A DNA stretch of 43,179 bases, taken from positions 1 to 43,179 of the forward strand of contig NW_024468321.1 of the NCBI RefSeq assembly GCF_002104995.1. Reading direction: 5' to 3'. This document shows positions 11,556-22,119 of this stretch, piece by piece. Each line of letters begins with the position of its first letter. The first letter of the stretch is position 1. The stretch comes from Linderina pennispora. Its lineage: Eukaryota > Kickxellomycota > Kickxellomycetes > Kickxellales > Kickxellaceae. The notes under the pieces are model-generated. The model saw nothing but the letters and a program-made list of their open reading frames with translations. It did not search any database and was not told the DNA's origin. The translations under genes and the position numbers were made by a program.

Positions 11556-12092
11556 TTAAGCCGAGAGGCGGGCAACGACCTTGGCAAACTCCTCGCCCTG
11601 TGTCACAGCCACAGACAGTTCCTTCTCGTTAGGTTGACGGGAGCCATCGCCACCAGCAACAGTTCCAGTGCCCCAGGGCGACCCGCCAACAACCTCCGAG
11701 TTGTCAAACAGATTCTGGTTACGGAATCCAGTAGGCACGTAGATCATGCCATGGTGTGCCAGATTGGGCAGGAAGGAGAATGCGGTTGTCTCCTGCCCAC
11801 CATGCTGTGAGCCTGTAGAGAAGAAAATGCCAGCAGGCTTGCCGTACAGGGCCCCCTTGGCCCACAGGCTGCCAGTGGCATCAAACAGTGCCTTAACCTG
11901 AGCGGGTGCTGCACCAAAGCGGGTTGGGAAGCCAAACAGGAAACCGTCAGCTTCAGTCAGCTTGTCAACAGTGATGACAGGGATATTTGGCTTGGGCGCT
12001 GCATGCATTTTGCCAAGGACTTCATCTGGGAGTGTCTCTGGGAACTGGTAATGCTCGATATCAACCAGACCAGTCTTCTCGAGTCCCTCTTT
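11556..12092 (-). pseudogene. WrbA/Pst2-type flavodoxin (NAD(P)H:quinone oxidoreductase), 3' part, cut by the transposon
   Basis: FMN-binding flavodoxin-like quinone reductase that makes two-electron reductions and protects against oxidative stress, usually at fungal eisosomes or in the cytosol. This part carries EGLEKTGLVDIEHYQFPETL, then DGFLFGFPTRFGAAPAQVKA and FDATGSLW (the WrbA substrate and FMN loop), FFSTGSQHGGQETT and HHGMIYVPTG, and ends in KVVARLSA. The family N terminus is missing here and sits at 16341-16415, beyond the 4,248-bp element. Removing the element and one TTT copy joins codons ...ATT AAA GAG GGA... in frame and gives 202 residues, the normal length. No frame break is seen within either part, so the insertion is recent. 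The allele is presumably null, unless an intact copy exists on another haplotype or the element excises. Confidence 0.92.
12090..12092. repeat. Target-site duplication, left copy (TTT)
   Basis: The TTT before the element is repeated directly after it (16341-16343). A 3-bp duplication fits the PIF/Harbinger group. The exact reading frame of the interrupted gene is restored only when one TTT is kept. Confidence 0.8.
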
Positions 12093-12489
12093 GGAGATCA
12101 GTCAGAATTGGTTAGCTATTTCATAATTATTAATATTTTTATTGTTTTCTTGTTCTGATGCCAAATATGGTGCTTCTACGAAACCCCCTTCGGCATCCTG
12201 AAAAATTTCAGTTGATACACAATTAATATGCTTCTACTGAGATAGAGGCTGTGTCCCAAGAAATCAACTGAAATTTTTCAGGATGCCGAAGGGGGTTTCG
12301 TAGAAGCACCATATTTGGCATCTTTGTTTATTTGTTAATCTAGTTGCTAGAATCTTTTTGGCCACTACTAAACATTCTGTATTTTAAAATATTTATCTAC
12401 TGCTAGTAATTGATTTCTTATTTGTTAATTGGTTATTCTGATAATAGTTATTTAGTTTCTTTAACTATTTATATTTGTGAATGGCCTCC
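12093..12489 (+). repeat. Left terminal direct repeat (397 bp)
   Basis: Read base by base, it matches 15944-16340 without a difference. Its last nine bases (ATGGCCTCC) are the start codon and first codons of the 547-aa ORF, so the repeat supplies promoter and start. An AT-rich TATTTATATT block lies just before the ATG. Confidence 0.93.
12157..12322. repeat. 59-bp perfect inverted repeat with 48-nt loop (left terminal repeat)
   Basis: Arm 12157-12215 (GATGCCAAATATGGTGCTTC...) is the exact reverse complement of 12264-12322 (...ATATTTGGCATC). Within the arms the core GAAACCCCCTTCGGCATCC is the only GC-rich part of the repeat. It could form a cruciform or a long RNA hairpin. The same structure occurs at 16008-16173. 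Confidence 0.95.
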
Positions 12490-14124
12490 TTGGGAGTACA
12501 TCTTAACTCCCTTTTGGGACTTCAGTTGAAGAATAGAGATAATATGCCTGATATATCTGATGCAAGATATACTAGTAATGGCATTGAACAACAAGGATTT
12601 GTTCAGCAATCTGATATCTTTATGGATTCATGTGTTGTTGAGATACCTGAATCATATGCTCTTATAGATCAGATTAACAATATTACTCCATTTGTTAGAT
12701 TGCATAGAGTTTTTGGTGATGGATACAGATTTAAGTATATGAAGTGCATGACAAGTGCAAGAAATGGTAAAGTCTCTGTTTACAAAGTATCTGCTCCAAA
12801 TGTTGCAATAGCTGATCCTGCACTAACTGATATCTTTCTTAGGATGCATCAGGAACATGTATTTCTTCTGAACTATGATATTACAATGGATTGTTTAAAC
12901 ATATCTTCTAGGGCTGTGATTAAGGAATTTCTTCTTGATAATGAAATCAGTAGCAATGATATTCTTGATGATGAAGATAAAGTTGGAGCAAACTGTATTA
13001 GCTGGTTTACTGATGAAGATGAAATAAAAATTAGGAACAAGTTGTATAATAAATTTGTTCAACTTCTAGAAAGTGGTGAGGTTCGTAATCAACTTACTTC
13101 TAAGCTATCAGAGCTAGTGATGCCAACTTCTCAGCAATTTGGTGAAACACTTGTTGCTTGCAGGAATGAAGGATTAATGAGACTTGAGCTTACTGTTCAC
13201 TCTCCTGAGTTGAAAGAAGTAGAATGGAACATAAACTTAATTGCTAGTACACTGGAGTTTCTTAGTGATTGTAGGACATTTGCAACATCTTATGAAAAGC
13301 AATGGATGGCACTAGTTGATCAGATTTATAACAAAAATATGTTATGCATTTACTTCCATAAAGAACATGCTCTTGGTTACTGCCATTGGTTCAATAGGAC
13401 AACTATGAAGAAACAAGGAATAGCTAAAAAGTTGAAAGAGAATGAGGATGTGATGACTGTTGTTTCCAATCTTACATTTAATGGGCACCCAACTGTTCTT
13501 CTAACATATGCTACCAGCAGTGGTCCTGTTGAATCAGAAGTTGTTCTAAGAAGAGATAACACAAACATCACCATTGTTCCAAGTCAGAGGAATTCTTTCT
13601 GGCCTGTTGCTTCAAGAGAAAGACAACAACACACATTTGCTGAAATGGGACTTGTAAACTATCGTGGGATGCATATTGATTGGCTAACTGCTCAACAAGC
13701 AAGAGAGAAAGTTTGTCTCTCAACTCTCTCAAGTATTAGTGAGGATGCTGATGACCTAGGAATAGATGATCTTATTGCTGATATCAGCAACATTGAACTT
13801 GATGATCTAGAACCCATATACATAAGAGAAAATACTGATCTTAGGCCAGCTAGATACAAAGTTGCTTATAACATACTTCATGCTGGAGATGAGTTCCTAG
13901 TTAGTCATTATTTCTTATATACTTTTAGAGGGTTGCCATTCTACTATCTAGATATCTATATGATTCACAATGAAGTAGTTAGCAGTACTCACACTCATAT
14001 CAAAATACAAGCAAGTAGTCCATTTGGTGAATATATTGCTTCTATTATTGGTGAACCAAATCAAGAAGTAGTACTTAAAGTAGCTAGAATTCATAATCGT
14101 ATTATCCATATTGCGAGGATCTAG
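12481..14124 (+). CDS. Transposon ORF1: 547-aa protein of unrecognised family
   Basis: I do not recognise this protein. The ATG at 12481 lies inside the left terminal repeat (MASLGVHLNSLLGLQLKNRD). Visible features are FLLNYDITMDCLNISSRAVI (about residues 135-155), an acidic patch LLDNEISSNDILDDEDK, a segment GLMRLELTVHSPELKEVEWN (about 237-257), WMALVDQIYNKNMLCIYFHK (about 278-298), and an acidic stretch with DADDLGIDDLIADISNIELD (about 420-440). The YDITMD and RLELTVH segments recall rolling-circle replication initiators, but I see no HUH or walking motif, so this is only a hint. No Myb/SANT motif, expected of a PIF/Harbinger partner protein, is evident. There is no signal peptide or membrane segment. 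Codon use is AT-rich, like the transposase. It ends 2 bp before the stop of the converging small ORF. Confidence 0.85.
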   Translation: MASLGVHLNSLLGLQLKNRDNMPDISDARYTSNGIEQQGFVQQSDIFMDSCVVEIPESYALIDQINNITPFVRLHRVFGDGYRFKYMKCMTSARNGKVSVYKVSAPNVAIADPALTDIFLRMHQEHVFLLNYDITMDCLNISSRAVIKEFLLDNEISSNDILDDEDKVGANCISWFTDEDEIKIRNKLYNKFVQLLESGEVRNQLTSKLSELVMPTSQQFGETLVACRNEGLMRLELTVHSPELKEVEWNINLIASTLEFLSDCRTFATSYEKQWMALVDQIYNKNMLCIYFHKEHALGYCHWFNRTTMKKQGIAKKLKENEDVMTVVSNLTFNGHPTVLLTYATSSGPVESEVVLRRDNTNITIVPSQRNSFWPVASRERQQHTFAEMGLVNYRGMHIDWLTAQQAREKVCLSTLSSISEDADDLGIDDLIADISNIELDDLEPIYIRENTDLRPARYKVAYNILHAGDEFLVSHYFLYTFRGLPFYYLDIYMIHNEVVSSTHTHIKIQASSPFGEYIASIIGEPNQEVVLKVARIHNRIIHIARI

Positions 14125-14126
14125 TT

Positions 14127-14381
14127 TTAAAATGGGCAGTTAGCAACCATTACTTCCATATCTGCACAACTGTAGTTGCATACATCAAACACATGCTTAA
14201 TAGTAACACCCTTATCTTCTGAAACACTCTCAATCCATGCTCTGATATATACTGACAATTTCCTGCTCATACTGAAATTCTTAGTTAGTAGTTGTGCAAG
14301 CTTTTCTCTCTCTTGCTCATCAAGGTCAGCAAGTTTTGTAGTGAAGAAAGTGTAGAATGGGCCCATTGTAATAAATGACAA
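14127..14381 (-). CDS. Transposon small ORF, 84 aa, unknown function
   Basis: It fills the gap between ORF1 and the transposase on the opposite strand. Its stop abuts the ORF1 stop, with 2 bp between, and its ATG at 14381 lies 25 bp before the transposase start, so the two could share a divergent promoter. The product begins MSFITMGPFYTFFTTKLADL and continues with DEQEREKLAQLL and an acidic, Cys-containing C terminus (VCNYSCADMEVMVANCPF). A helical, charged small protein is likely; I recognise no family. The tight packing argues that it is real, but an 84-codon frame in AT-rich DNA could also be chance. Confidence 0.5.
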   Translation of the reverse strand: MSFITMGPFYTFFTTKLADLDEQEREKLAQLLTKNFSMSRKLSVYIRAWIESVSEDKGVTIKHVFDVCNYSCADMEVMVANCPF

Positions 14382-14406
14382 CTTTTAAATTTATGAGTGC
14401 CTCACA

Positions 14407-15636
14407 ATGATGAATCATCAATTACAAGAACTCAGAGAAAGGGAGTTTCATAAGCTGTACACAAACAAATGGAAGTTTCTGAATGATGACTGGGTAATTT
14501 TAAAGCCCACAAAATATCACAGAAGTGAAGTTCATGAAGTAAGAGAAATTAAGCATATAAAAGATACACTTCTTAAACATCTAGGGATGATTCCTGTTTT
14601 CTTCTTTCTGAATGTTTTGTTTGGTTGCACTCATTATCCATGTCCTTACAGAAGTGTAGAGAAAGGATTGCTCATCTTGTACCAACTTGTTGAAGGATTG
14701 TCAATCAATGAAATGGAAAGATTCATTCCAAGAAGCAGCTATCAAGCTATTCACAATATGTTCTATATTTCTGAAATGAAAGATTTGAACAAGAAACTAA
14801 CATACTATCTGCAAACAATGTTTTCAACTCCAGAACTACGAGTCTTTGCAGCAAAGATACAGAATCCACAAGGGTTTAAACATGTAACACTAATGTTAGA
14901 TGGCCATGACTCAAGAGCACTACACAATGGAGCATACAAACCAGATCTCTATTCATTCAAATTGAAAAAATCAGGATATCGCACACAAGTATGCATTGAT
15001 GTGAATGGAATGGTTCTACTTGTTTCACCAACTGAAGACTGTAGAGATCACCCAGACTCAAGAATGATTAAGAACATGGGGCTACTGAAGAACATATCAC
15101 CTATTGATTGCATTGTGCTTGATGGTGGCTATCCACAAAGTATTTTGGAAGAGATGACTGAGGAAGAAGAGCAGGATACTTTTGGACTGCACAACTTTTG
15201 TTTACCAGTAAGAAAGCAGAGAGGAACAAGTTTATCAGAAACAGAAGCTGAATATAATTCCCATCTTGGATCATTCCGTTCAATGGTAGAAAATACATTT
15301 GGAGAACTAGGCAATACATTCAAAAGGCTGTCAAACAGGGAGATTGTTAGAGTAAAGAATAGGAATGTTTACAATGTGCAAATGAAGTTATGCTGCTTAC
15401 TCTATAATATGAAGAAGTTACTAGCAAACAGTGATGTACATATTGATCATCATCACTCACTCTGGGTTATGAGTAACTTTGATTACCCTGATACACATGA
15501 TAAGTCAACACAAGTGGAACCAATACATACTTTGCCCCAAAAAGCAGAGTTAGAAGCATCTATTGTTGAAATTCAAAATCGATTCCTTCAATCTAAAATT
15601 GATGATACATATGATTGCTTGGTGCATATTGATTAA
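14407..15636 (+). CDS. DDE transposase (DDE_Tnp_4 / PIF-Harbinger-like), 409 aa
   Basis: RNase H-fold nuclease that would cut and join the element ends. An N-terminal helix-turn-helix-like segment (YRSVEKGLLILYQLVEGLSI, NEMERFIPRSSYQAIHNMF; about 81-120) is followed by the catalytic core. D165 is in VTLMLDGHDSR, D239 in CIVLDGGYP and E295 in RSMVENTFGEL, with the family-typical LKKSGYRTQVCIDVNGMVLL and CRDHPDSRMI between them and NVYNVQMKLCCLLYNMKKLL after the Glu. All three acidic residues are present and the frame is intact over the usual length, so activity is plausible. The last codons overlap the first unit of the 113-bp tandem repeat. The ATG at 14407 is preceded by an AT-rich spacer; a second Met follows directly. 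Confidence 0.9.
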   Translation: MMNHQLQELREREFHKLYTNKWKFLNDDWVILKPTKYHRSEVHEVREIKHIKDTLLKHLGMIPVFFFLNVLFGCTHYPCPYRSVEKGLLILYQLVEGLSINEMERFIPRSSYQAIHNMFYISEMKDLNKKLTYYLQTMFSTPELRVFAAKIQNPQGFKHVTLMLDGHDSRALHNGAYKPDLYSFKLKKSGYRTQVCIDVNGMVLLVSPTEDCRDHPDSRMIKNMGLLKNISPIDCIVLDGGYPQSILEEMTEEEEQDTFGLHNFCLPVRKQRGTSLSETEAEYNSHLGSFRSMVENTFGELGNTFKRLSNREIVRVKNRNVYNVQMKLCCLLYNMKKLLANSDVHIDHHHSLWVMSNFDYPDTHDKSTQVEPIHTLPQKAELEASIVEIQNRFLQSKIDDTYDCLVHID

Positions 15637-15943
15637 TTACAGATGGAGTACTAATGACTTGATGACTTGAATATGATGTTTTAAAATGGCACAGTTTGAA
15701 TCTTTCTAAAAATGATTGTATATATGATTGCTTGGTGCATATCTACTTATTACAGATGGGGTTCTAACAACTTGATGAATTTATTACGATTTTTTAAAAT
15801 GGCATAGTTTGATTCTTTTTAAAATTGATAATATATATGATTACTTGGTATTAGAAAAATAGTTATAAATAGGATGATAATGACTTGATGACTTGAACAT
15901 GATGTTTTAAAATGGAACCTTTTGATTAAGTCTAGTTCTATAA
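15611..15943. repeat. Three imperfect 113-bp tandem repeats in the transposon 3' region
   Basis: Units start at 15611, 15724 and 15837, each with ATGATTGCTTGGTGCATAT or a diverged version, then TGACTTGATGACTTGA and TTTTAAAATGG. The TTTTAAAATGG block is at 15679, 15792 and 15905, and a fourth copy lies at 14125 right after ORF1. The first unit overlaps the last eight codons of the transposase. Arrays like this near an end often serve as transposase binding sites, which is inference here. Confidence 0.8.
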
Positions 15944-16340
15944 GGAGATCAGTCAGAATTGGTTAGCTATTTCATAATTATTAATATTTTTATTGTTTTC
16001 TTGTTCTGATGCCAAATATGGTGCTTCTACGAAACCCCCTTCGGCATCCTGAAAAATTTCAGTTGATACACAATTAATATGCTTCTACTGAGATAGAGGC
16101 TGTGTCCCAAGAAATCAACTGAAATTTTTCAGGATGCCGAAGGGGGTTTCGTAGAAGCACCATATTTGGCATCTTTGTTTATTTGTTAATCTAGTTGCTA
16201 GAATCTTTTTGGCCACTACTAAACATTCTGTATTTTAAAATATTTATCTACTGCTAGTAATTGATTTCTTATTTGTTAATTGGTTATTCTGATAATAGTT
16301 ATTTAGTTTCTTTAACTATTTATATTTGTGAATGGCCTCC
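15944..16340 (+). repeat. Right terminal direct repeat (397 bp)
   Basis: Identical to 12093-12489, including the 59-bp hairpin arms at 16008-16066 and 16115-16173. Here the terminal ATGGCCTCC runs into flavodoxin sequence and reaches a TGA after two more codons. Confidence 0.93.
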
Positions 16341-16415
16341 TTTAATTGACTGCGAAACAGTATGGATATGGCCGTAGGTCGAGTAGGAGATGATGAAAAC
16401 CTTGGGGAGAGCCAT
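16341..16415 (-). pseudogene. WrbA/Pst2-type flavodoxin, 5' part, cut off by the transposon
   Basis: The first 25 codons of the flavodoxin gene, MALPKVFIISYSTYGHIHTV and then SQSIK, hold the first FMN phosphate-binding loop (YSTYGHIHT). TTT at 16341-16343 is the right copy of the target duplication. The rest of the gene is at 11556-12092. Confidence 0.9.
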
Positions 16416-16552
16416 TTTTGTTGTGGTAAGTGATTGTGTATAAAAAAGCTGCAGAAAAGAAGGGGAGAGCAGGTTGATATAGTGATACTGCACGAGTTGT
16501 TTATAGGGGTAAGTTGATGTCGAAAGCCAGACAGCGGGAACAGATGCTGGGC

Positions 16553-16560
16553 TTATATAC
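16553..16560 (-). promoter_or_regulatory. TATA box of the flavodoxin gene
   Basis: TATATAAG on the minus strand lies about 140 bp upstream of the ATG at 16415. The position suits a fungal promoter but is not proven. Confidence 0.4.
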
Positions 16561-17340
16561 TAGGTGCAGCTACAAATTGAATACTAATAGTAGATGCTGT
16601 CTGACTAACAGCTAGTAACTTGTTATAATCGCAGAAGGCAATTTGTCATGATTGGCCAGCTGATAATTTGCCATTAGCAAGCAGTGCTGTGGTATTAAAA
16701 ATCAGGCAGCAGGTGGGTTTAGTCATTGTGCTCCCGGCACTGTTCCCTAAAGCAGTAGTGTTTCCTGTGAGGAGCGGGTCAGCTTCTAAAATAATTCATA
16801 TGGCACCAAGCATGCCTTGGTCAGCTAATTGAGTATTGGAGGTATTGGTAAGGTGCTTTCCTAGCTCGCTGGCTCAGTAGAGTGGGCTCTTAAAAGGTTG
16901 ACCTAGTGATTCTTGGTAGAGCTCATATGGATGCTGCTGCATAATGGTACCAGTAGTTGAGAGTGAATGGGGTATCAGAAAATTAGATTACTTCTCATCT
17001 TTTTCTTTTTCTCATTCTTTCTTTTTTATTCTCGAATTGGTCCAGTCACTGGTCTGGTCACTCTCCTTTTTTTCACTAACTCCCTAATATCTCGTTAAGA
17101 CTAGCTTGGTTTGTCTTTTCTCAATATATTATCCTTTACTTGGGTGCTACAGCCCAACCTAGCTCAATATCTCATAACCTCAGACATGGAGTAGGTAAGT
17201 AGGGTAGGCCTACTAGTTCCAGACCAAGGCACCTATAGATATCTTCAAGAACACCTTGGGTAGGTAATCAAACCTATAGGTATGTAGTGCTTTTTGCTGA
17301 CAAATAGGCATATATGTTTCTCTTCAACTAGTGTAAAGGG
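16561..17340. other. Gene-poor AT-rich DNA
   Basis: I see no gene. The 3' part (from about 17210) contains short stop-free stretches that may be the worn beginning of the relic annotated at 17345-18033. Confidence 0.4.
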
Positions 17341-17344
17341 GTAA

Positions 17345-18033
17345 AAAGTTGATAATTTTTCAACTATGGCACTATATAAAGTGGCTATAAAATGGCCACT
17401 TCAAAAGGGTATCATAGAAACAATGGACTAGAAAGAAAGAAGAAAGAAGAAAGAAGATCTTAGTGGACAGGAGATTAATTGTTATGATACCTATAGAGAA
17501 TTGTAGAAGCAGGTAATAGTAATTGACAATATCTTCTGATCTGGAATAAGGAATATATTGATCACATAATGTTGATAGGGAAACTGGTTTTCAACACCAC
17601 AACCAGCATAGAGTAAACAAAATGGCAGTCAAGAAGAGTAAGGAAGCCAGCTTAGCAAATTCCTAAAGTACTATATTACTAGTGTTTGGTATGAAAACAA
17701 TTGGTCTAGAAAGGAAGCTTAGTTAAGTCTGTTATCCAATATTAGCCCAGAATACTCAGTACTTCTTAAAGCCCATCAGAAACTCTTAGAGGGATCTGAA
17801 AACATGGGAAGTAGACTATGGATAAAAAAACATATCTACAAGTATATGATTAAGCAGTATAAACAGTAGTATAACAGAGCAGCAGTGATTATGCATAGCA
17901 CACTATTGATCAGTAGGAGGTCAGCTGCAATGATACAGTGTGTGGGATACATTCTTATGGCATTCTCACCAACTCTGGTCTATAGTAGATTGTCTACATA
18001 GATGTTCTACTAGGAAGCACTAAACATTGTATA
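17345..18033 (+). pseudogene. Decayed coding relic 1, unknown family
   Basis: A single forward frame stays protein-like over about 230 codons despite roughly a dozen in-frame stops. Recognisable stop-free stretches are NFSTMALYKVAIKWPLQKGI (from about 17354), KYYITSVWYENNWSRKEA (17666-17719), SLLSNISPEYSVLLKAHQKL (17726-17785) with GSRLWIKKHIYKYMIKQYKQ soon after (17810-17869), and YILMAFSPTLVYSRLST (17948-17998). A GAA/AAG simple repeat lies within it (17429-17457). I cannot name the family. The lack of indels with many stops suggests decay by point mutation. The region is far more AT-rich than neighbouring genes. Confidence 0.4.
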
Positions 18034-18093
18034 AAACAAAGATTGGTTGATATGCCAAAAACTCACTTTTCTATACTGAAACATGAATCAGGA

Positions 18094-18135
18094 TTTCAAT
18101 CAACATGTATAGATTTTCAATCAACATGTATAGAT
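18094..18135. repeat. 21-bp tandem duplication
   Basis: TTTCAATCAACATGTATAGA occurs twice with a 21-bp period. Confidence 0.8.
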
Positions 18136-18275
18136 CTGGCCTATTATTGCTATTGTCGCTGATGGAATCAGATGCGCCGAGCTGGCATTTGTACAGATAC
18201 CACATAGAGGGTATTTAGATGATCGCCAAAGTTAAATATTAGTAAGGAATAATTTGCAGCCAATAAGAAATATGC

Positions 18276-18357
18276 GACGCTTTGGCCGAGTGGTTAAGGC
18301 GATGCCCTGCTAAGGCATTGTAGTTTCTACGCGCAGGTTCGAATCCTGCAGGCGTCG
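18276..18357 (+). tRNA. tRNA-Ser (anticodon GCT)
   Basis: An 82-nt class II tRNA. The acceptor stem GACGCTT pairs with AGGCGTC, the D arm is GGCCGAGTGGTTAAGGC, and the anticodon arm is ATGCC-CTGCTAA-GGCAT with anticodon GCT. A long variable arm (TGTAGTTTCTACGC) and the T arm CAGG-TTCGAAT-CCTG follow, then a T-rich stretch. Confidence 0.95.
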
Positions 18358-18682
18358 ATTTTTGCACCAGTTGCTTTTTTGTTTTGTAAGACGGTTTCTG
18401 TGGCGAAGTTCACCTTTAGGCCAAATGCTGGGTGGTTGATGTGGCATTCTGTAGAGTTGTGGTGTGTTTTTATTTAATGGTGGAGAGGAGGCGCCCAGGC
18501 CCTTTCTTTCGCTATCCAACCCTTATCGCTTGTATTTTTGAAAAATTGGCACCACCGCAGGAAGAGACACAGGCAGGGGCATGGGGCACCCCGGGAAGGT
18601 GTCTGTATTTGCGCAGCGGCCAAGAGCACAAGCAAAAAAGAAACCGCACCAACTCGGCATAAAAGGGAGGGGCAAAAATGAC

Positions 18683-18755
18683 TGCCTTCTGCCAGAATCG
18701 AACTGGCGACCTTCTGCTTACTAGGCAGACGCTCTGCCAACTGAGCCAAGAAGGC
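18683..18755 (-). tRNA. tRNA-Thr (anticodon AGT)
   Basis: 73 nt. The acceptor stem GCCTTCT pairs with AGAAGGC, the D arm is GGCTCAGTTGGCAGAGC, and the anticodon arm TCTGC-CTAGTAA-GCAGA has anticodon AGT (reads ACU/ACC). The T arm is GCCAG-TTCGATT-CTGGC. No intron. Confidence 0.93.
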
Positions 18756-18756
18756 A

Positions 18757-19740
18757 TTCCAACTTCTGATTTTCAGAAAATCGGCACGTATCCAATAGAA
18801 TCATTCGCCAAGCTAGATTGATCGGCATTCATACTAGTAATTCCTCGCGGCCTATGCTTATACAGCTCTATTTGAGTATGACTGCCAGTGGGCTATGTGT
18901 AATTCAGAACACATGGGGTGGTTGGTGTTCTAGTTCTGGCGAATCTATTTTTTTTGGCCAACCTATCTACAGTATCTCCCAAATCACTAGGACACTCTTT
19001 GCTATTACACTTATTCAATATTAATTACTAGTGTTGTGCTAATAAGGGGGTGTGGATAAGTTTGGATTTCAAAACTAAAGAAAAAGGGAAAGAGAAAGGA
19101 AAACTAGTAATGCCACACATTAGCCTTTTTGAAGATTCTGTTGCAGTGCGATGTCTGACCTCATCAGTGAAACTGAGGTGGAAAGCTGTGATTGTAGTGG
19201 TCACAAGTCTCTGCTGGATATCTCCATTGGTTCAGTGCGAGAGCTGCTCTCATTGTCGGTTGACTCGATAACTTCTATGGCATCATCATGGCAGTCATTG
19301 TCAACCATGCAACACTAGTACTTATATAAATGCTGAATAGTACATCCTATTATATATTACTTTGCTGAAACTATATATAATGCCTATCAAGTATAGCTAT
19401 AGTGCTTAAATATCCTATATTAGAAGTCAATTTTTTTTTAAAAAAAATTATACTGCTTAAGATGCTTATAAAAGAATAATTAATTAGTTATATAGAAACC
19501 ATATACTAAGATAAAAATATAATTAAAAATCTAGAATATTTAGTAGTGACTATAGTTGATGTATTAACTAGAAGAACTAATAAATAAAAGTTACTAATAG
19601 GATTTTTAGAGAAGTACTATATTTAATAAAAGAATAAAAATATAAGGTAAATTAAATAAGTGGGGGTTATACAGAGATAATTATCTGCCCATTAACTATT
19701 TATGCATGCATAAATAGTTGTTGTGCAGATAACAAACTCT
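18757..19740. other. Gene-poor AT-rich DNA with a palindrome
   Basis: No gene is supported. It includes a T8/A8 block near 19432-19448 and the perfect palindrome annotated at 19694-19719. It is very AT-rich from 19310 to 19660. Confidence 0.45.
19681..19732. repeat. Palindrome (26-bp perfect core) nested in 8-bp outer arms
   Basis: AACTATTTATGCATGCATAAATAGTT at 19694-19719 equals its own reverse complement. TTATCTGC (19681-19688) and GCAGATAA (19725-19732) form a second inverted pair around it. This may be the remains of a small fold-back element or a protein-binding site. Confidence 0.8.
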
Positions 19741-20499
19741 GAATGACCTCCTAGATATATGATATTGGTACCATACTATAGGAGGTCTCTAGATAGTTCA
19801 GTACCACCTCTGATCTTGCTCACCATAAAGTAGAATAGCAGTACTAATAAGCCAATGAATATTAGTTTGTAAGTATTCCTGGCTAGGCTACATTTTGCTC
19901 TAGACAATGGGTTCTACAGTGCTGATTCTGACCAAATTCTATCAACTTTTGTTATTACAGTGGCTACTTTTATGATAATTTATAGTTTTAATAGCAAGAC
20001 TATGGCCACTATAAATTTGGCCATAATGGCCTTTGGTGTTGTGTTCAGGTACTACCCTGAGGACACATGAAATAGCTATAATTATAAGCAGAGCAACCTG
20101 TGATCACTGCTGACCTCGGCTGCCACTGAGTACAACTATCAGCTGGTCAAGGTATAGAGTCCTGTTGGCAAGATTGTCATCACATAGGCCATGGCCAATT
20201 TCCTGGACCAGCTCATTTTGCTGTACAGTATAGCATAATGCAATGTGTACTTGGTTGGTGGTGCATATGCTAGCAGATCAGCCACCTATGCCAAAATCCT
20301 GAGCAACATCATATTGTCTAGCAACCGCTATATGGCTCGCGTTGCCCACCACACAGATGCATCAGAGTCGATAACTGAGTGGTGGTTATGCGATGCTAGC
20401 ACCGTGACTAGCACTCCCAACCATATTTGCTCATTTGAGACCCACATTGCTGCCTCCCGTCATTGTGCCCTAGCATCGGCCATCATATATGGCAGCTGA
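19741..20499 (+). pseudogene. Decayed coding relic 2, unknown family
   Basis: One forward frame of 253 codons is continuous and protein-like, apart from eight in-frame stops (at 19744, 19831, 19870, 20068, 20101, 20155, 20185 and 20236), before a final TGA at 20497-20499. The stretches between stops include ADSDQILSTFVITVATFMII (19921-19980), INLAIMAFGVVFRYYPEDT (20011-20067) and VYLVGGAYASRSATYAKILS (20245-20304), with a further 64 open codons after that. No indel is needed, and every stop could come from CAA, CAG or CGA by one C-to-T change. I cannot name the family; an old mobile or viral gene is possible. The 86-codon open tail alone is unlikely to be a separate gene. Confidence 0.5.
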
Positions 20500-20613
20500 A
20501 CAGCATATCCAGCCATTCTCAGAATAAAATTTTCTTCTTGAAAGTGACTGTTTTAATTAAAGCTGAGACAAGAGAGAAACGGATTGAATAGATAGCAGAA
20601 AGAAAGGGTTAAT

Positions 20614-22119
20614 TTAGGTGTACTCAGCCTTCTCGGAATCGTCGTTGTCTTTGGAGGCGCGGATCTGGTAGCGGCTACCGAGGACACAGTGGAGCCCAAC
20701 CGAATGGACAGCGACAACATCCTCGACCTTGAGCCCCTTGGTCTCAGGCAGGAAGAAGAAGCAGAAGACAAAGGCGGCGATGTTGAAGCCCATGAAGAAG
20801 AAGAAGGTATAGTCGCCCATAGCCTCCTGCATCGGCGAGAAGTAGACACCGATGGCGAAGGTGAACAGGTAATTGACAGCACCGCCAATGGCAGCCATGG
20901 CCGACATGGCGTAGGCCGGGGTCATCTCGGCAGCAGCAGCCCAGGGCAGGGGACCAACACCAAAGTTGAAGAACACGTTGTACAGGAAGACCATGGTGAT
21001 GACAAGGGCATCAATGCCCTTGATGGAGCCAACAGCCATCAGCATCGAGAAGAGAGCCATGGTACCGTGCGACAGCAGCATCAGGGTACGACGGCCGAAG
21101 CGAGCGCCCAACAGCATGCCGACGAACGTGAAAATGGCAGCAACAATCGAAATGACGCACGACAGGATCTGGGCAGTGGTCGGGATCTGCGACGGGTCGT
21201 CCTTGGTGGTGCGGTTGAAGATCTGGGTCGAGTAGAAAATGACAGCATTGATGCCGGACATCTGCTGGAAGAACATGAGCATACAGACAACGATGAACTG
21301 GTGGCGGAGGTTGTCGGGAGTGCGGCCGAGAATGAGATCCATGACATTCACCTTGGGGGCCTCCTCAGCGCGAGCCTGTGCCTTGGCATCGTCGTCAACC
21401 ATGTCCTGAAGCTCCTGCTCGATGTCAGCGCCCTTGCGCAGCTTAATCAGAGCAGCACGGGCCTCCTCGACGCGGCCACGAGAGACGAGCCACTTGGGCG
21501 ACTCGACACAGATGGGGAACAGCAGGGTGGTGGCAACGCCAATAACACCAGTGATACCGAATAGGATGCGCCACAGAGGGGGCTTGGCGAGGCCGAGCGA
21601 GACGGCGTTGGCCAGCAGAATACCCACGTTGGTGGCCAGCTGGAGGGTTCCGCCGAGGATATCGCGAGCCTTGGGAGTGGTGATTTCGCCGACATAGACC
21701 GACAGGGCACCGTTACAGAAGCCAGCAGCGAAACCGACAAACAGACGGCCGACAATCAGCTGGCCCAGAGATGTGGTGGTCGAGAGAAGGACACCGCCGA
21801 CCAGGGCAAGCAGCGGGCCCCAGGTGAGCACGAACTTGCGGCCGTACCGGTCGGAGATAGGGTTACCGGCAATGGTGCCGATCAGAGCGCCGATAGCAAA
21901 GCAGCCGACAGCCACACCCCAGATGGTGGACTCGGTCGGGATACACGAGGGGAAGGGTCCGTTGTAGTGCTTCTCGCCGGTCACACAGTTGGAGATAACG
22001 TCGCCGGGAATGTTGATGACACCAATGTTCCAGCCAAAGTTGACACTGCCCAGGGCAGCCATCATGGCGCAGAAGCACTGGTACTTTGTCACGCTGAGCG
22101 TACGCGAGTCGACAGACAT
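20614..22119 (-). CDS. Hexose transporter, MFS sugar porter family
   Basis: Plasma-membrane glucose/hexose facilitator, 501 residues, twelve predicted membrane helices. The start reads MSVDSRTLSVTKYQCFCAMM, and helix 1 has LGSVNFGWNIGVINIPGDVI, close to the GLUT-type LGSxxFGYNxGVINxP. Sugar-porter signatures are SDRYGRK after helix 2, GRLFVGFAAGF in helix 4, VESPKWL after helix 6, FFQQMSGINAVIFYST in helix 7 and FLPETKG after helix 12. The QQMSGIN and PETKG motifs are those of sugar-binding sites in the family. The C-terminal tail is charged (KDNDDSEKAEYT). Frame intact, no intron, GC-rich codons. The long open frame on the opposite strand is its shadow. Confidence 0.93.
   Translation of the reverse strand: MSVDSRTLSVTKYQCFCAMMAALGSVNFGWNIGVINIPGDVISNCVTGEKHYNGPFPSCIPTESTIWGVAVGCFAIGALIGTIAGNPISDRYGRKFVLTWGPLLALVGGVLLSTTTSLGQLIVGRLFVGFAAGFCNGALSVYVGEITTPKARDILGGTLQLATNVGILLANAVSLGLAKPPLWRILFGITGVIGVATTLLFPICVESPKWLVSRGRVEEARAALIKLRKGADIEQELQDMVDDDAKAQARAEEAPKVNVMDLILGRTPDNLRHQFIVVCMLMFFQQMSGINAVIFYSTQIFNRTTKDDPSQIPTTAQILSCVISIVAAIFTFVGMLLGARFGRRTLMLLSHGTMALFSMLMAVGSIKGIDALVITMVFLYNVFFNFGVGPLPWAAAAEMTPAYAMSAMAAIGGAVNYLFTFAIGVYFSPMQEAMGDYTFFFFMGFNIAAFVFCFFFLPETKGLKVEDVVAVHSVGLHCVLGSRYQIRASKDNDDSEKAEYT

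Follow-up and report, generated by a model that had tools for sequence, protein, structure and literature searches.

A composite-like DDE transposon with long terminal direct repeats and a two-way hairpin loop in the fungus Linderina pennispora

Anatomy of the element and its insertion site

The window analysed here is a 43,179-bp stretch of contig C194 (NW_024468321.1) in the 26.17-Mb assembly of Linderina pennispora. It contains a 4,248-bp element (12093-16340) that carries a DDE transposase gene between two long terminal direct repeats (LTDRs). The left (12093-12489) and right (15944-16340) LTDRs, both on the forward strand, run from GGAG to CTCC and are identical at 397/397 positions in a pairwise comparison; the match extends rightwards by a further 2 bases (TT) and leftwards by none. 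The outer flanks of the element read CTCTTT/GGAG...CTCC/TTTAATT, and its G+C content is 0.34 compared with 0.52 for the rest of the window.

Each LTDR contains a perfect 60-bp inverted repeat around a 46-bp loop. An inverted-repeat search placed the arms b and b' at 12157-12216 and 12263-12322 in the left LTDR and at 16008-16067 and 16114-16173 in the right LTDR. The loops c between them (12217-12262 and 16068-16113, delimited by copy parsing) point the same way in the two LTDRs of the window and occur in both orientations among copies. The DNA of the window LTDR is predicted to fold far better than shuffled sequences (z -15.8). An earlier reading of these letters alone (the sequence-only reading) had held that only GGAG/CTCC is inverted, which is wrong: since each LTDR has its own inner inverted repeat, the full element does carry long inverted repeats, and 12157-12216 and 16114-16173 are perfect inverted partners lying 64 and 167 bp inside their respective ends. 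The element has an LTDR-internal region-LTDR (LTDR-INT-LTDR) anatomy in which each LTDR has its own GG..CC ends and inner perfect inverted repeat. Each LTDR is a unit like a miniature inverted-repeat transposable element (MITE), and two such units flank the transposase and an orphan open reading frame (ORF), ORF1, in a composite-like arrangement.

The transposase gene (14407-15636, forward strand) encodes 409 residues of DDE_Tnp_4/IS5 type. Its DDE_Tnp_4 match (E 6.3e-14) lies above the Pfam cut-off and bears out the intact transposase that had been read between identical repeats; DDE_Tnp_1 and IS5 models are also matched, the IS5 NCBIfam matches being weak and below curated cut-offs. The predicted fold is of RNase-H/DDE type (pLDDT 87). 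In the model, the conserved D165 lies in a strand, D239 just past a strand and E295 in a helix, and we assign these residues as the likely catalytic triad; their placement is close to the arrangement in PIF/Harbinger (PHIS) transposases (PMC4482050, cited throughout from part of its text). A search for relatives returned 72 proteins, the nearest named ones from Linderina, followed by Coemansia (56 and 61% identity, covering 66 and 58% of the query) and by named Mucoromycota proteins at 39-50%; many unnamed relatives carry a chromodomain (9 of 26 aligned members). A fungal-type DDE_Tnp_4 transposase is also encoded on two contigs (L089 and L090) from metagenome-assembled genomes titled uncultured Bacilli, on one of them with a tail that resembles a chromodomain by eye; both contigs are likely to be contamination of bacterial bins.

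ORF1 (12481-14124, forward strand, 547 residues) starts at an ATG in the final 9 bp of the left LTDR and matches no Pfam or NCBIfam model. One search returned three relatives, all from Linderina. The genome holds at least 105 transposase and 79 ORF1 matches, partial ones included. Between the two genes lies a candidate 84-residue ORF on the reverse strand (14127-14381) without a significant match. No reverse transcriptase or other retroelement domain was found by Pfam in the three ORFs of at least 80 residues, in agreement with the sequence-only reading. A 113-bp tandem repeat (15592-15930, forward strand) of three decaying copies (100, 83 and 74%) overlaps the transposase stop and reaches up to the right LTDR, and other copies of the same family have internal repeats at the same place.

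The insertion itself can be read from an empty site. A stretch of contig C1 (L091) is 99.1% identical to the left flank in the window across 2,035 columns and 99.9% identical to the right flank across 1,501; it lacks the element and has one TTT where the window has two (12090-12092 and 16341-16343). The reading frame through the joined flanks is open. It belongs to a host gene for a WrbA-type NAD(P)H:quinone oxidoreductase on the reverse strand, whose 3' part (11559-12089) covers profile positions 24-197 of 197 (24/25-197/199) and whose 5' end (16341-16415) covers positions 2-20 or 2-22, the latter a weak match when taken alone (E 0.009 and 0.044). The neighbouring gene, used as the query of a protein search, turned up an uninterrupted WrbA-type copy of 100% identity at C1:2810585-2811115, and the interrupted gene has 14 further matches in the genome, some only pieces. 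With one TTT in the empty site and near-identical flanks, the element has inserted into a WrbA-type coding region with the 3-bp duplication that the sequence-only reading had proposed. Window positions 16350-22000 match two inverted stretches of C1, C1:2807503-2810575 and C1:2845797-2851496, about 40 kb apart (100% and 92-96%). These could reflect a rearranged duplication or a haplotype, and C194 may be either an allele or a rearranged copy of a segment of C1.

Copies of the element in the genome

The copies examined, 20 long and 60 short stretches, fall into at least three families by full-length transposase identity to the window: A (96-100%), B (86-87%) and C (74-76%). Their direct repeats measure 397 bp with 60-bp arms in A, 396 bp with 44-bp arms in B, and 460-461 bp with 54-bp arms in C. 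The counts given here are lower bounds in which copies near the window's sequence are over-represented. The 397-bp repeat has at least 96 genome matches, partial and hairpin-strand matches included (best 40 of 169 candidates scored; best 40 of 177 in a further search). A pattern search found the A/B right end at 137 places (≤1 mismatch) and the A left end at 92 (≤3 mismatches), and reversed control patterns for these ends found none. Within the fetched stretches we parsed 68 intact repeats in A, 13 in B and 24 in C, incomplete repeats being omitted. Repeat termini are GG..CC in 103 of these 105 repeats and GG..CT in two. The A repeats comprise 24 solo repeats, which border no internal region, together with 21 left, 22 right and one middle repeat, and the LTDR-INT junctions are the same at the 21 left and 22 right ends. 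The start codon of ORF1 lies within the last bases of the repeat in both A and C, and ORF1 identity between these families is only 51%. Between A and B, conservation within the LTDR is highest in the hairpin region, at 95% versus 59% and 80% for the outer parts.

Target duplications are found around solo repeats as well as full elements. Identical 3-bp flanks surround 19 of 24 A solos (two share flanks, leaving 18 sites), as against 91 of 552 mismatched pairings, and no A solo (0/24) matched over 4 bp; in the other families, 3/5 C solos and 0/1 B solos have matching 3-bp flanks. For full pairs of LTDRs, matched 3-bp duplications were found in 14 of 20 scored, a tally in which the script's trimming of one C was overridden at C157:147814 and C158 was added by hand, and which omits truncated or loop-less ends (C165, C201), dimers and heavily broken copies. 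Full copies flanked by TTT or by other 3-bp duplications, solo copies and unchanged boundaries had been expected from a search of the same genome, and all were found. The A duplications (9 pairs and 18 solo sites, in a list typed by hand from the copies and checked against the repeat parsing) fit WNW in 26 of 27 cases: ANT in 11, ANA in 8, TNT in 7, TNA in none and another form in one. None of the eight B and C duplications (AAT, TAT, CCT, TCT, ATA, ACT, AGA, TGT) is TNA either. In a nested insertion in C146, joining the flanks with one duplication restores the host element exactly; three other nested sites have no letter-for-letter reference match, and each is off by one base by eye. The element is presumably an autonomous, recently mobile DNA transposon, and the recent movement and unusual end architecture proposed in the sequence-only reading are supported.

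Recombined forms of the LTDR are also present. Dimers sharing an LTDR occur at C157:160540-170048 (A), and at C133:5514-13322 and from C1:3296763 onward (both C). Four A-type palindromes of 294-295 bp join two left ends (L061, L062, L064, L058) and two of 500 bp join two right ends (L040, L048), all without matched target duplications; a further right-right palindrome of 499 bp lies beside an internal region. Since the left-left and right-right sizes sum to 2 x 397, that is, to two repeats, they are the expected reciprocal products of arm exchange between LTDRs. We also considered these palindromes as transposed units and rejected this: among 14 examined (two of them, C188 and C157:124577, not cleanly delimited), 0/9 of A or A/B type had matched duplications. 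A C-type right-right unit (C135:4350-4911) is flanked by TAT at either end when its limits are drawn as in other C repeats; its flanks come from different sequences, and the match is possibly due to chance, as 91/552 random pairings match. Two palindromes, L067 (C188:8846-9140) and L074 (C165:40030-40321), pair a left end of A type with a left end of B type, and are exchanges between families. In the window itself, a 90-bp palindrome of two inverted C-family left ends (19662-19751), with no matched flanks seen, is a foldback remnant.

Loop orientation and the likeness of the two repeats

How the two repeats of an element stay alike can be followed through their sequence and through the orientation of the hairpin loop. 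The A subfamilies (the window's group, the C35/C157/C2/C147 group, and C6) differ from one another at 11-21 of 397 sites, and in each of nine elements compared these differences are common to both LTDRs, which implies that the LTDRs of an element evolve in concert. Within these nine elements, the two LTDRs differ at no site in seven, at one site in one and at eight sites in one.

The loop is found in both orientations in intact LTDRs of every family (40 versus 28 in A, 10 versus 3 in B, 14 versus 10 in C). In C178, an insertion with a matched AGT duplication, both loops are inverted and both repeats are identical to those of the window once un-inverted. A tree of 65 A repeats, built from the outer parts with the inverted segment excluded and three divergent rows dropped, requires 16 orientation changes; well-supported branches force six of these, and a number as low was reached in 323 of 500 shuffles. 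Among 13 LTDRs with identical outer parts, the loop states split 7 versus 6. This scatter over the tree, together with the split, indicates that loop orientation changes fast relative to sequence. Yet in 13 of the 14 insertions whose duplications match, both loops point the same way (permutation p 0.005; the pairs are not fully independent), as they do in 3 of 6 pairs without matched duplications. A two-way hairpin loop that is scattered over the repeat tree, yet matched within insertions, is new here. In all four unlike pairs among the 20 (C1:2993462-2997601, C1:3002854-3007101, C135:134291-138538, C212:200955-205603), the left loop is flipped with respect to the window and the right loop keeps the window's orientation, a pattern also seen in the truncated C165 copy and in the C157 dimer.

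We argue that the element is a composite-like IS5/PHIS (DDE_Tnp_4) transposon whose LTDRs are homogenised from one around transposition, so that it resembles a long terminal repeat (LTR) element without RNA, and we give this reading a probability of roughly 0.75. The loop marker does point to copying at transposition, or else to the two repeats exchanging sequence very often, and suggests that both are copied or homogenised from one LTDR around transposition. The transposase, with ORF1 as a possible partner, would cut at GG/CC, using the subterminal arms as putative binding sites, and would insert the element with a 3-bp stagger; its substrates would be the complete element and, probably, a lone LTDR behaving as a MITE. 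Recombination of the arms within an LTDR could invert the loop and between LTDRs could form the palindromes, and exchange between whole LTDRs could give solos and dimers. The LTDRs of a new copy might be homogenised most simply via a one-LTDR DNA circle or by frequent exchange between LTDRs; circles and unequal exchange are discussed for the KolobokP transposons by their authors (PMC9587614, cited throughout from part of its text).

Several observations weigh against this reading. Neither circles nor excision products nor transposition events were observed. The A tree is weakly resolved, with 19 of 35 inner branches open. The insertion at C1:2993462-2997601 (C) has matched TAT duplications and unlike loops in repeats that differ otherwise at one site, so loops can flip after insertion, and the loop agreement could instead reflect recent descent from few masters, the 14 pairs being non-independent. 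The six of 20 full pairs without matched duplications may be recombinants between copies. Between A and C, the hairpin region as a whole is kept at 46%, versus 48% and 52% for the outer parts, owing to differences in length, and by eye a good alignment is confined to a core of about 38 bp. ORF1 shows no recognisable function, and its structural model is poor (pLDDT 38). In addition, the LTDRs of C6 differ at eight sites and two LTDRs of the C157 dimer at 11, and LTDRs of different elements in the same young subfamily are as alike (0-4 differences) as those within an element. Because of this equal likeness, sequence identity alone cannot place copying at transposition, and it is the loop marker that carries the point.

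The last of these observations, and the unlike LTDRs within one insertion in C6 and in the C-family element on C1, would also fit a plain cut-and-paste composite, in which two MITEs chanced to flank the genes, the likeness of repeats stems from few recent masters with occasional gene conversion, and loop inversions are random and rare. Bacterial composite transposons with direct flanking units are known (PMC9587614). This explanation is possible but doubtful: LTDRs with identical outer parts are divided almost evenly in loop state, so flipping is fast compared with substitution, and a plain composite predicts that unlike pairs are common among matched insertions, where only 1 of 14 is unlike. 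Long identical direct repeats, solo repeats and an ORF1 start codon inside the repeat would in turn suit an LTR retrotransposon, or a non-autonomous one with a captured transposase gene. We consider this extremely improbable given the lack of retroelement domains in the ORFs, the GG..CC rather than TG..CA termini of nearly all intact repeats, and a transposase gene and inner hairpin common to three families. The genome is rich in nested copies, and two nested repeat insertions around an unrelated transposase gene, or an assembly artefact, might be imagined. We give this hardly any credence, as the LTDR-INT junctions recur from copy to copy, ORF1 starts within the LTDR in both A and C, and an exact empty site exists; chance, and the assembly duplication against which the sequence-only reading had cautioned, are excluded by the multi-copy repeat, the many transposase matches and the empty site on C1.

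Two further proposals concern the loop more directly. Its inversion could be driven by an activity encoded by the element, ORF1 or the transposase acting on the hairpin (compare hairpin-ended replication), rather than by general recombination. Inversion is present in all three families, and full-length perfect arms are kept by 39 of the 68 LTDRs in A (60-61 bp), by 9 of the 13 in B (44-45 bp) and by 18 of the 24 in C (54 bp). Against this, in 29 of the 68 A LTDRs the arms are no longer perfect over their full length, Pfam and NCBIfam revealed no recombinase or nuclease domain in ORF1, and general recombination between close inverted repeats explains the inversions and the left-left and right-right units alike; we therefore regard an element-driven flip as unlikely. 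A bolder extension of the homogenisation reading is a DNA-only analogue of the LTR cycle. Here a single-LTDR intermediate, such as a circle, would be cut at the opposite ends of its LTDR and so duplicate the LTDR at insertion, and the hairpin would be the working site whose loop flips as a by-product. We put this forward tentatively, as less probable than not by a clear measure. If it were true, loop orientation would be a natural tracer, and a second superfamily, in a fungus, would have such a life cycle.

Relation to known transposons

The closest precedent is KolobokP of animals, which belongs to a different superfamily. KolobokP, of the Kolobok superfamily, is described from seven animal phyla, with a His-Me nuclease in most families (Kojima and Bao 2022, PMC9587614); in oyster, autonomous elements measure 4,022-4,748 bp and their LTDRs about 450 or 660 bp (PMC9587614). 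The Linderina element shares with KolobokP the LTDR-INT-LTDR plan, LTDRs with their own short terminal inverted repeats, a DDD/E transposase, solo LTDRs with duplications and multimers sharing an LTDR (PMC9587614). The sequence-only reading had seen a hybrid of DNA transposon and LTR retrotransposon, which is not supported; the element is composite-like, with two MITE-like units as in KolobokP (PMC9587614). It is like LTR retrotransposons in its long identical direct terminal repeats and solos, and unlike them in having a DNA transposase, no reverse transcriptase and no TG..CA ends. It differs from KolobokP in its IS5/PHIS-type transposase, orphan ORF1, fungal host and LTDRs of 396-461 bp, and in its perfect inner hairpin with a two-way loop, a loop that the available part of the KolobokP description does not contain (PMC9587614). 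The C/DxxH motif of Kolobok-type transposases, which that part of the paper places between the second D and the last E (PMC9587614), is absent between D239 and E295 of the transposase, where the triad assignment is putative, and Pfam gave no match to a His-Me finger nuclease in ORF1, the 84-residue ORF or the transposase.

PIF/Harbinger elements have a TWA duplication, a second ORF and an average length of about 4.1 kb (PMC4482050). The assignment to this group in the sequence-only reading stands for the DDE_Tnp_4 transposase, and the second ORF and 3-bp duplication are likewise shared (PMC4482050); it fails for the duplication sequence, as 0 of 27 A duplications are TNA and hence none TWA, and the long terminal direct repeats set the element apart (PMC4482050). 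The second ORF of PIF/Harbinger is of Myb/SANT type; ORF1 matches no Pfam or NCBIfam model, and its predicted structure is too poor for a judgement of the fold. The Pangu group of PHIS has terminal inverted repeats of 11-40 bp, ends in AG or GG, and an ANT duplication (PMC4482050). Our element resembles Pangu and bacterial IS5 in its GG ends, in a second ORF without known motif and in an IS5-like transposase (from weak NCBIfam matches). The ANT duplication is not strict here: ANT is the commonest class (11/27), but 16 of 27 are not ANT. Long direct repeats are not mentioned for Pangu in the portion of the source consulted (PMC4482050). Because the strict target duplications fail, the element is neither PIF/Harbinger nor Pangu, and because its transposase differs, it is not Kolobok; we file it as a new composite-like lineage of IS5/PHIS transposases. 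Outside Kolobok, the open-access literature, searched largely via listings, yielded no DDE element with long terminal direct repeats, and a prior description is possible.

KolobokP was presented as unlike all other DNA transposons (PMC9587614, in the part available), and the Linderina element adds a second superfamily with the same plan, showing that DNA transposons can acquire and retain long terminal direct repeats. Structure-based annotation could mistake such elements for LTR retrotransposons. The two-way loop is a built-in marker, and makes the question raised by KolobokP, how the repeats stay alike and how the composite is maintained, directly testable.

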